Assembly: GCA_029006135.1 (NCBI GenBank)
Contig: JAQXGE010000047.1
Span: 1 to 50,102 of the forward strand
Source of the DNA: Oscillospiraceae bacterium
Lineage (GTDB): Bacteria > Bacillota > Clostridia > Oscillospirales > Ruminococcaceae
Reading direction: 5' to 3'
DNA: 50,102 nucleotides
The first letter of the stretch is position 1, and the number at the start of each line of letters is the position of its first letter. A program made the translations under genes and the position numbers. Positions 25,331-27,315 of this stretch are shown here, in pieces. The notes under the pieces were generated by a model. That model had not been told where the DNA came from. It saw nothing but the letters and a program-made list of their open reading frames with translations, and did not search any database.

Positions 25331-26614
25331 TTACGGTGCGGACCAGACGGCTCGCAGCGCGTCCGCTTCCTGCTCGGCCAGCGTGGGGTAGAGCGTGTTG
25401 GAAAATAGTGAGTCATAGCGGTAGACGGCCGTGCCGCCTGCACCCTGCGCCCGCAGGAAGGTGATCTGTTCGGCCAGCGCGCGCCCCGAACACCACTCGG
25501 TACCGGGACCGGAAGACAGCCCGCCGTCCCCTTCCCCAATACGGCTTGCCGCGAGCCCAAAAGCGAGTGAAGTCTCCTCACACCGGGGCAGCGTGAGCCA
25601 TTCCTGGGCCAGTGTGTCCAGCGCCAGAGCGCGGCTGCCGTTTTTGATGTAGTCCCGCCCCCAGTAGAGCTGAGGAATTACGAGGTCGCAGTATCCCGGT
25701 TCGGCCAGCCAGAGAGCAGCGTCACTGTACTGGGCATCGCGGCAGTTTGTGAGATTGCCCTGGGGCGAAACACTGAACACAACGCCGTATTCCTGCGTCA
25801 CGGCCCGGCAGAGCCGCATCAGCGCGTTGACGTTCTCCCGCCGCCAGTCCTCAAGGCTCAGGTTCGTGCCGGAAGCGGCATAGTCCGCAGCGTCAAACGC
25901 CGGGTCTGTGGTGGGGTAAAAGTAATCGTCAAAGTGGATGCCGTCAATGGAATAGTTTTGACACAGCTCGGCGAGGGAATCCGCCAGATACTGCTGAACC
26001 TCGGCGCTCGAAGGGTCAAGAAACTGCCCGTTCCCGGCGGTTCGCACCCAGTCGGGGTGGGTCACAGCGGGACTTTCGGCGCAGAAGGGAGCGGGCGTGC
26101 TCCCTGACCGGAGCCGGTAGGGGTTAATCCAGGCGTGCAGTTCAAGCCCTGCCGCGTGCGCCTGCTCCACCAGCACCGCCAGCGGGTCAAATCCGGGGTC
26201 CTGCCCCTGAACGCCGGTGCAGAGATGGCTGAACGGGAACAGGGCACTGGGGTACAGCGCATCCCCAAAAGGCCGCACATGGGCAAAAACCGTGTTGGCA
26301 CCGAGCGCCGTGATGTTCTGCATCATCTGCCGGACCTCGGCACGGAAGGCGGATTCTGAGGAAAAATCCGTTCCCTGCCATTCAAGATAACTCACCCACA
26401 CGCCGCGGAGTTCCGAGTCGGGGGAAGATTCTGCATTCGGCTCGGCGGGCGCTGAAGCGATGGAGGCGGGGAATTCGGACGCCGCGATGCTGCCGTCCGG
26501 CACTTGCCCGGAACCCTCTGCGCGCTGTGCGGCCTCATTCCACAGCGCCGGCAGGACAAGGAAAAGAGCAAGCCCGCCCACTGCCGCCAGTACCGCCGCC
26601 ATCCGTCTGAACAC
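25331..26614 (-). CDS. GHL10-type (DUF187/YngK) glycoside hydrolase-like protein, exported
   Basis: Membrane-anchored or secreted hydrolase of the GHL10 family, thought to act on cell-wall or extracellular glycans. The start is taken as GTG 26614 (VFRRMAAVLAAVGG...), about 7 nt after GGGGGGA; ATG 26602 is the alternative. One hydrophobic signal/anchor segment comes first, then a Ser/Pro/Glu-rich linker. The family domain starts at ELRGVWVSYLEWQ and includes ALGANTVFAHVRPFGDALYPS and GLELHAWINPYRLRSG. IDGIHFDDYFYPTTDPAFD carries the likely catalytic acids, and DLVIPQLYWGRD closes the barrel. The total is 427 residues. It is transcribed away from the tRNA gene. Confidence 0.85.
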   Translation of the reverse strand: MFRRMAAVLAAVGGLALFLVLPALWNEAAQRAEGSGQVPDGSIAASEFPASIASAPAEPNAESSPDSELRGVWVSYLEWQGTDFSSESAFRAEVRQMMQNITALGANTVFAHVRPFGDALYPSALFPFSHLCTGVQGQDPGFDPLAVLVEQAHAAGLELHAWINPYRLRSGSTPAPFCAESPAVTHPDWVRTAGNGQFLDPSSAEVQQYLADSLAELCQNYSIDGIHFDDYFYPTTDPAFDAADYAASGTNLSLEDWRRENVNALMRLCRAVTQEYGVVFSVSPQGNLTNCRDAQYSDAALWLAEPGYCDLVIPQLYWGRDYIKNGSRALALDTLAQEWLTLPRCEETSLAFGLAASRIGEGDGGLSSGPGTEWCSGRALAEQITFLRAQGAGGTAVYRYDSLFSNTLYPTLAEQEADALRAVWSAP

Positions 26615-26664
26615 AGCACATCCCCCCCGGCCTATTTGTATGCGCCGGCTCACAAAAATAAAGG

Positions 26665-26693
26665 TTGGCAATTGGAGAAAAATATGCTATAAT
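26665..26693 (+). promoter_or_regulatory. tRNA promoter
   Basis: TTGGCA (26665-26670), a 17 bp spacer and TATAAT (26688-26693, extended by TGC) lie just before the tRNA at 26706, leaving a leader of a few bases. Confidence 0.88.
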
Positions 26694-26705: not shown

Positions 26706-26779
26706 GGGCCATTAGCTCAGCTGGTCAGAGCTGGCGGCTCATAACCGCTTGGTCCCGGGTTCAAGTCCTGGATGGCCCA
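26706..26779 (+). tRNA. tRNA with CAU anticodon, probably tRNA-Ile2
   Basis: Full cloverleaf. Acceptor GGGCCAT (26706-26712) pairs perfectly with ATGGCCC (26772-26778). The D arm has GCTC/GAGC. The anticodon loop CTCATAA sits on stem GGCGG/CCGCT, and the T arm is CCGGG-TTCAAGT-CCTGG. CCA is not encoded (ATAA follows). A CAU anticodon may be Met or lysidine-modified Ile2. The ATTAGCTCAG D arm, the GGCTCATAACC anticodon arm and the TTGGTC variable region resemble tRNA-Ile2 (ileX type) as I recall it, more than elongator tRNA-Met with its TTCATA loop. The 3' end is copied repeatedly downstream (26764-27315). Confidence 0.9.
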
Positions 26780-27315
26780 TAAACAGAGGTCCCCCTGCCG
26801 TACCCCGGCAGGGGGACTTCTGTTTATGTCCCGTGGCCATCCGGACTTGAACAGCACGGCCGTCCGCAGACGGCAAAAAACAGTCCGGTGGACTGTTTTT
26901 TAGTGCGCGGGAGAGTCCTGGATGGCTCACAGAGAAATTTTCCCTGCCGTACCCCGGCAGGGGGACTTCTGTTTATGCCCCGTGGCCATCCGGACTTGAA
27001 CAGCACGGCCGTCCGCAGGCGGCAAAAAACAGTCCAGCGGACTGTTTTTTAGTGCGCGGGAGAGTCCTGGATGGCCCGAAGAGAAAGGTCCCCGCCGTAC
27101 CCCGGCGGGGGCCTTTGTGTTTATGCCCCGCGGCCAACCGGACTTGAACAGCACGGCCGTCCGCAGACGGCAAAAAACAGTCCAGCGGACTGTTTTTTAG
27201 TGCGCGGGAGAGTCCTGGATGACCCGAAGAGAAAGGTCCCCGCCGTACCCCGGCGGGGGCCTTTGTGTTTATGCCCCGTGGCCAGCCGGACTTGAACAGC
27301 ACGGCCGCCCGCAGG
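26764..27315. repeat. Tandem array (about 3.7 x 149 bp) derived from the tRNA 3' end
   Basis: Units begin at 26764 (inside the tRNA), 26914, 27063 and 27211 (period 150, 149, 148); the last is broken off near 27315. Each unit holds, in order: a direct copy of the tRNA 3' end (AGTCCTGGATGGCCC and variants); a GC-rich hairpin with a TACCC loop; an inverted copy of the tRNA T-arm/acceptor end (GGCCATCCGGACTTGAAC and variants, the reverse complement of GTTCAAGTCCGGATGGCC); the hairpin GCCGTC-CGCA-GACGGC; the terminator-like hairpin AAAAAACAGTCC/GGACTGTTTTTT; and TAGTGCGCGGGAG. No credible gene lies in 26780-27403. Repetitive minus-strand frames there are translations of the tRNA-like tail. Confidence 0.92.
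26781..26825. terminator. tRNA terminator hairpin, first hairpin of the repeat array
   Basis: AAACAGAGGTCCCCCTGCCG (26781-26800) pairs over 20 bp, with one G-U, to CGGCAGGGGGACTTCTGTTT (26806-26825); the loop is TACCC. It starts 2 bp after the tRNA. The 3' T-run is short. A second perfect 12 bp hairpin, AAAAAACAGTCC/GGACTGTTTTTT (26875-26901), lies 50 bp on and is the better terminator. Confidence 0.75.

Follow-up and report, generated by a model that had tools for sequence, protein, structure and literature searches.

The window, by which we mean the whole stretch of 50,102 nucleotides analysed here, carries a tRNA gene with the anticodon CAU (Table 1), which presumably is not an initiator tRNA, given its G1–C72 pair, and which we take to resemble tRNA-Ile2. 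The adjoining divergent gene (25331–26671) has a homologue (E ≤ 1e-50) in 28 of the 35 genus genomes, in several of them beside the tRNA. Behind the tRNA, and beginning within it, TRF delineated a tandem array at 26764–27314 with a period of 148, 3.7 copies, 91% matches and a score of 875. A first reading from sequence only had proposed a unit of 148–150 bp, repeated about 3.7 times behind a CAU tRNA and starting inside it, and ARAGORN, TRF and the sequence itself bear this out, with unit starts at 26764, 26914, 27063 and 27211 (spacings of 150, 149 and 148) and with copies 2 and 3 being 93% and 88% identical to copy 1 over a 149-nt reference. In a full unit, the tRNA 3' end in sense orientation leads into a GC hairpin; then come the T-arm and acceptor sequence in antisense and two further hairpins. 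An assembly artefact, which the same reading had considered, is unlikely, since the units are not identical to one another and further genomes show the same design. Two mechanically called minus-strand ORFs of 131 and 179 aa cross the array, reading the repeats. At 1–86, the window additionally holds a short tandem repeat with a 27-bp unit (AAAACCGCCGCCAAA..., TRF score 85).

Table 1. Features of the CAU tRNA locus in window coordinates; R1 is the covariance model of the unit core.
Feature	Position	Strand	Basis
tRNA gene, anticodon CAU	26706..26779	+	ARAGORN; Rfam RF00005, 64.1 bits
Promoter-like site of the CAU tRNA, TTGGCA-17-TATAAT, TG before second hexamer	26665..26693	+	Pattern scan, 11/12 matches
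Hairpin directly 3' of the tRNA, 23-bp arms, loop 5	26778..26828		Inverted repeat
Antisense arm, unit 1: reverse copy of tRNA acceptor 3' strand and T-arm	26835..26852	-	Sequence, fold
Core, unit 1	26853..26913	+	Folds; R1 match 26841-26918; covariation
Sense arm of unit 1 / start of unit 2: tRNA 3'-end copy from the T-loop on, drifted (GGATGGCTCA)	26914..26929	+	Repeat family
Antisense arm, unit 2	26984..27001	-	Sequence, repeats
Core, unit 2	27002..27062	+	R1 match 26990-27067, 97.7 bits
Sense arm, unit 2	27063..27078	+	Repeat family
Antisense arm, unit 3, drifted (GGCCAACC)	27132..27149	-	Sequence, repeats
Core, unit 3	27150..27210	+	R1 match 27138-27215, 99.2 bits
Sense arm, unit 3, drifted (GGATGACCC)	27211..27226	+	Repeat family
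Partial unit 4: hairpin, antisense arm 27280-27297, core ending near hairpin 1	27227..27314	+	TRF end 27314, sequence

In unit 1, the antisense arm reads GGCCATCC-GGACTTGAAC and lies opposite GTTCAAGTCC-T-GGATGGCC in the tRNA, lacking one base, with six additional bases (tcccgt) standing between the hairpin and the arm, so that the inverted repeat with a 6-nt insertion and a 1-nt deletion described previously is found again in the sequence. The core that follows runs in the order AG, inner stem (GCAC/GTGC, 26854–26857 with 26903–26906), hairpin 1 (26859–26874), hairpin 2 (26875–26901) and GCGGGAG. Throughout the array the sense copies have drifted away from the tRNA sequence. The tRNA together with its first inverted copy folds at −98.6 kcal/mol, compared to −58.1 kcal/mol (sd 4.3) in 200 shuffles (z −9.4), and the antisense–core–sense segment reaches z values of −6.7 on the plus and −7.8 on the minus strand. 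In the predicted lowest-energy fold of an RNA spanning the tRNA and unit 1 (−137.3 kcal/mol), the antisense arm is paired to the 3' half of the tRNA; with the native tRNA enforced, the value is −130.5 kcal/mol. Since the lowest-energy fold gives up the tRNA, an RNA switch would be possible if transcription passes the hairpin. A transcript carrying the antisense copy, as the first reading had it, would likewise have to run through this 23-bp hairpin, which separates the tRNA from the antisense arm. In a simple terminator scan, this first hairpin is terminator-like on the minus strand only (26817–26789), and the equivalent hairpins of units 2–4 are terminator-like on the plus strand. Both strands of 901 bp hold 7 terminator-like sites versus 1.1 in shuffles, six of them within the array.

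Whether the unit occurs at other tRNA genes or dispersed, a question already raised from the window, could be addressed by searching related genomes, where R1 finds it behind tRNAs of 15 different anticodons. Within the own genome, the last 45 nt of each of 42 tRNAs were compared with the sequence downstream (less than 400 nt of it for five), and an exact inverted match of at least 9 nt was found only at the CAU tRNA and at tRNA-Pro(CGG), the latter being followed by two units. A third array runs to an end of contig C3 in a stretch without a tRNA, and tRNA-Lys(CTT) is the best match for the arms of its first unit. Using the tRNA plus unit as BLAST query, 34 of the 35 genus genomes were matched, many by the tRNA alone; the covariance model R1 of the core, built from 11 units and comprising 78 positions and 27 pairs, likewise matches in 34 of 35 (E ≤ 0.01). 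Under stricter filters than in the genus search, R1 matched 14 of 247 genomes of a family sample (E ≤ 1e-6; 4 in the genus and 10 outside) and 14 of 295 genomes of an order sample, 10 of which belong to four other families. Among 17 loci viewed outside the genus, 13 contain a tRNA called by ARAGORN, and 9 further outside loci have either a tRNA at most 500 nt upstream (6) or a tRNA 3' end recognised by eye (3). The tRNAs carrying the design outside the genus are Met(CAU), Ser, Leu, Ala, Asp, Tyr, Lys, Glu, Arg and Pro. The unit family is near-universal in the genus and patchy across the order. A protein encoded in the window has its closest relatives, at 75%, in MAGs of uncultured Oscillospiraceae, with further matches spread over many groups.

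We read 146 units, which is most of the places among the R1 matches listed, with 17 of the 163 model matches (below 31 bits, mostly opposite-strand or partial) excluded. A tRNA 3' end precedes 113 of the 146, intact in 97 cases (same strand, at most 900 nt upstream, 15 anticodons) and displaced in 16; the remainder stand behind another unit (4), at contig starts (6) or in places which our script could not explain (23), and several of the 16 viewed from this last group show a recombinase-like frame entering a tRNA-like tail. The 72 first units begin 47–84 nt behind the tRNA, and 22 of 123 locus-strands hold two or more units within the stretch fetched. We are close to certain that this is a real unit family tied to tRNA 3' ends. 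The proposal of a REP-like family seeded by a tRNA holds as far as a repeat family tied to tRNAs is concerned; a dispersed REP family was rejected on the tRNA linkage of the units.

Both arms follow the tRNA they stand behind. Scored against its own tRNA, the antisense arm of the 72 first units reaches 14.25, versus 7.07 for tRNAs of other identity; the corresponding values for the sense arm are 13.57 and 6.03. The own tRNA beats every other for 47 antisense and 44 sense arms, with the two near-identical Glu tRNAs counted as different. The best-fitting isotype is that of the local tRNA in 89 of 97 cases, the 8 failures consisting of five Glu/Glu ties and three real ones. Even inside an isoacceptor, the antisense arm fits the tRNA of its own species best in 20 of 50 comparisons, ties in 23 and fits worse in 7, some of the variants compared being only shifted ARAGORN gene ends. 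For the cores, nearest neighbours were determined in 129 units (16 below 45 bits and one cut by a contig end, 17 of the 146, were omitted): 74 lie at the same tRNA of another genome, 15 at another tRNA of the same genome and 40 at neither, with mean similarities of 0.657, 0.617 and 0.600, respectively. Since core neighbours mostly share the tRNA across genomes, hopping between tRNAs is rare or old, and a unit mostly descends, or is carried, with the identity of its tRNA. Which tRNAs are occupied varies between species.

The core displays extensive covariation. Changes on both sides are seen in 25 of the 27 R1 pairs and 94.3% of paired cells are complementary, versus 70.3% in shuffled and at most 48.8% in slid controls, in counts that lean towards the model, as the alignment was fitted to R1, and that include weak rows (below 31 bits). 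Pairing is lowest in the outer stem, which is formed by the arms (78.7% of cells). With weak rows again included, Watson-Crick pairs make up 3112 of 3239 cells (96%) in the inner stem and both hairpins, and 1766 of 1798 in hairpin 2. Within the same 3239 cells we counted 42 G–U and 22 A–C pairs, the latter corresponding to G–U on the other strand. As controls, the tRNA acceptor stems of the same loci gave 33 G–U and 5 A–C in 637 cells, the T stems 58 and 10 in 455 cells (30 odd cells, register imperfect), and terminator-like hairpins 45 and 13 in 1016 cells, where the search had allowed both kinds equally. The low and only mildly lopsided wobble points to a DNA-level constraint or to copying and would favour a DNA hairpin; the excess of G–U over A–C of about 2 to 1 leaves room for an RNA role. 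In many units hairpin 2 is seen by eye to carry a T-run. An extra A in the antisense arm was rejected as a universal attC-like bulge, being present in just 20 of 70 units by a crude alignment which often misjudged the register.

Recombinase frames adjoin a subset of the units. At nine loci (L118, L124, L139, L150, L154, L196, L202, L219 and L227), GTTCG stands exactly 24 nt before CACCA, directly ahead of hairpin and unit, at the ends of recombinase-like frames. The six frames translated resemble large serine recombinases, some stopping just past CCA and others entering the hairpin or unit, and of two that were domain-scanned, one contains Resolvase, Recombinase and Zn_ribbon_recom and the other, which is partial, a zinc ribbon. 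These loci suggest a group of large serine recombinases aimed at tRNA ends, and a recombinase-associated insertion at the T-loop is likely; the GTTCG–CACCA spacing is 19 nt in tRNA-Glu, compared to 24 nt at the recombinase junctions. Several loci have a displaced tRNA half ahead of hairpin and unit, its start lying at the anticodon or behind it. Inserted DNA splits tRNA-Ile2, Gly and Arg genes at L104, L121, L179, L201, L203, L213 and L220, where the unit sits on the displaced 3' part. An integrase model matches below its cut-off 336–593 bp downstream of five units (L168, L203, L206, L213 and L214). The integron integrase model TIGR02249 found nothing above cut-off in the 35 genus genomes, and its weaker matches belong to other tyrosine recombinases, as they do in all 14 control genomes. 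A clean pair of empty and occupied sites was not found.

The unit shares features with several known classes of element. REP and BIME sequences are short palindromic intergenic repeats, sometimes in tandem. The unit is likewise short, palindromic, intergenic and sometimes tandem; unlike them, it is tied to tRNA 3' ends (113 of 146) instead of being dispersed between ordinary genes, its arms are locus-specific and its core is branched and not a single hairpin. MITEs are short, non-coding and have inverted-repeat ends, which also describes the unit, except that its inverted ends are not constant and vary with the tRNA, fitting the local one over other identities. In integrons, attC sites have inner and outer stems, an unpaired stretch and variable terminal hairpins. 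The predicted structure of the unit has all of these (hairpin, inner and outer stems, unpaired stretch), a likeness of structure alone, and it resembles attC (PMC3053210) as an imperfect palindrome in tandem sites. It differs from attC in that its arms copy the local tRNA and that no integron integrase exceeded the cut-off in the 35 genomes, and from integron arrays in that no gene cassettes were recognised among the units. Like attR scars and the class II T-loop sites of phages such as Ms6 (PMC1762012), the units place direct copies of the tRNA 3' end, starting in the T-loop (drifted in the window), behind an intact tRNA, and recombinase frames occur at some of the same tRNA ends, as with tRNA-integrating islands. 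Unlike attR scars, the unit has a length of 150 bp, an antisense copy, a conserved folded core and tandem arrays. The units of about 150 bp in the window are too short for an integrase-bearing element between the copies, and recombinase frames elsewhere adjoin units and do not lie inside them.

For the window and ten loci, only the tRNA reaches the gathering score in Rfam 15, other matches staying far below theirs, and a known annotated repeat family, an explanation considered in the sequence-only reading, was not found there besides the tRNA. Nor did we recognise a description of a tRNA-end cassette in the open-licence literature searched; that the cassette family is undescribed rests on these two sources. 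A single 201-bp query matched no plasmid, and among phages one unannotated gut scaffold, MT840079, in which the unit stands behind a displaced tRNA-Ser end and which possibly is host DNA. Five pattern matches in viral contigs fall in coding sequence and were rejected, by eye, as due to chance; a single tRNA occurs in the matched stretches, 6 kb from its match.

We propose, as the best reading and with a probability of roughly 45%, that the unit is a candidate non-autonomous, attachment-site-like palindromic DNA cassette at tRNA T-loop sites. The cassette would consist of the GC hairpin, the antisense acceptor/T-arm copy, the folded core and a sense copy that starts within the T-loop and continues to the tRNA 3' end, and would be under selection as DNA, in the form of a cruciform or a single-strand hairpin. 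Direct T-loop copies may recombine with each other and so add or remove units, the tRNA staying intact because the unit copies stand behind its complete end, and the cassette may also ride on integrative elements that use the same tRNA ends. In favour of this proposal are the spread of the R1 matches, the tRNA linkage, the match of both arms to the local tRNA, the covarying and mostly Watson-Crick core, the drifted sense copies in the window, and the recombinase frames and displaced tRNA ends beside units. The locus-fitted arms count against this proposal, since they are hard to explain by ordinary insertion, as do the core neighbours, the failure to find a clean pair of empty and occupied sites, the integron integrase, plasmid and viral-contig results, the spacing of 24 versus 19 nt, the low pairing of the outer stem and the excess of G–U over A–C. 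A decidedly long shot is a single-strand-hairpin recombination system anchored on tRNA genes, in which antisense arm, core and sense arm fold from one strand, the arms mimic the target T-arm and re-copy the address on arrival, and each cassette is addressed to one isoacceptor. If true, this would amount to an integron-like system with tRNA genes in place of attI.

Control in cis at the RNA level is the main rival of the DNA cassette, though a somewhat unlikely one. Here the antisense arm would block folding or processing of the tRNA and the sense arm would act as a decoy releasing it, thereby tuning certain tRNAs, which requires transcription past the hairpin behind the tRNA. The predicted preference for tRNA–antisense pairing (−137.3 versus −130.5 kcal/mol), the strong covariation of the structure, the arms that follow tRNA variants inside an isoacceptor (20 best, 23 ties and 7 worse of 50) and a first hairpin unscored as plus-strand terminator in the window are consistent with such control. 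However, G–U pairs are scarce compared to tRNA stems, units 2–4 of the window have terminator-like hairpins on the plus strand and hairpin 2 has a T-run in many units, the occupied tRNAs differ among species, and a tRNA normally folds before a downstream arm is made. Because of the spacing of 24 versus 19 nt and the first hairpin being unscored on the plus strand, we consider the DNA cassette slightly less likely, and RNA control slightly more likely, than we otherwise would.

The units may also be a passive by-product without function: the polymerase would have turned back on itself at the hairpin, giving a reversed copy of the tRNA end, after which tandem slippage and gene conversion among the copies preserved the likeness of the arms. 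By eye, antisense copies at some Glu, Val and Gly loci open directly after a T-run with the CCA complement, the units are in tandem, and palindrome correction would yield Watson-Crick pairs; the core, however, is not derived from the tRNA, yet it is common to many tRNAs and several families with covarying pairs, and since independent fold-backs would not give the same core, we regard this origin as rather unlikely. Stacked integration scars had been suggested from the sequence; they would be attachment-site remnants of T-loop-directed elements that integrated and excised repeatedly, by means of a large serine recombinase or a tyrosine integrase. The T-loop of tRNAs is the target of class II integrases (PMC1762012), the sense arms begin in the T-loop, as displaced ends can, and recombinase frames reach tRNA-like ends beside units. 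Some link to integration therefore finds support in these frames and the displaced tRNA ends, but plain scars do not, since neither an antisense copy nor a covarying core would be part of a scar, and remnants would not be expected to retain both in 34 of 35 genomes; on the whole, we consider scars improbable. A two-way transcription insulator, whose stacked terminators would keep convergent transcription and integrated elements from affecting the tRNA, could account for the excess of terminator-like sites (7 in 901 bp versus 1.1 in shuffles), but would work without any copy of the tRNA, antisense or sense, and appears very improbable.

A repeat family without a match in Rfam 15 stands at many tRNAs across a bacterial order, with two arms that fit each host tRNA around a shared core. 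How antisense and sense copies of 15 different tRNAs are kept or renewed is a testable question, which bears on tRNA genes as landing sites, on the evolution of palindromes or on tRNA control. Such arrays may in addition break assemblies, as with the array at a contig end in the own genome, and confuse tRNA-based maps of islands.

Parts of the unit also occur in other repeats. The bare hairpin CAGTCCRSYGGACTG has 25 places in the own genome at up to 1 mismatch, versus 1 for a reversed control; seven of them are tRNA units and the others viewed are, by eye, different GC-rich repeats. A second dispersed palindrome of the own genome (e.g. L054–L060 and L077–L081), TGACAGTCCRSYGGACTGTCA, has GC-rich flanks and only the hairpin in common with the tRNA units. 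What appeared to be a separate, long type of unit was rejected, as it is the short unit containing a dispersed repeat, with no gene inside by eye. This GC-rich repeat of about 115 bp, with up to 23 matches per genome, lies between GAACAG and hairpin 1 in the long units, and is also found at L006 (reverse strand, about 562–680), L154 (920–1030), L379, L382 and others.
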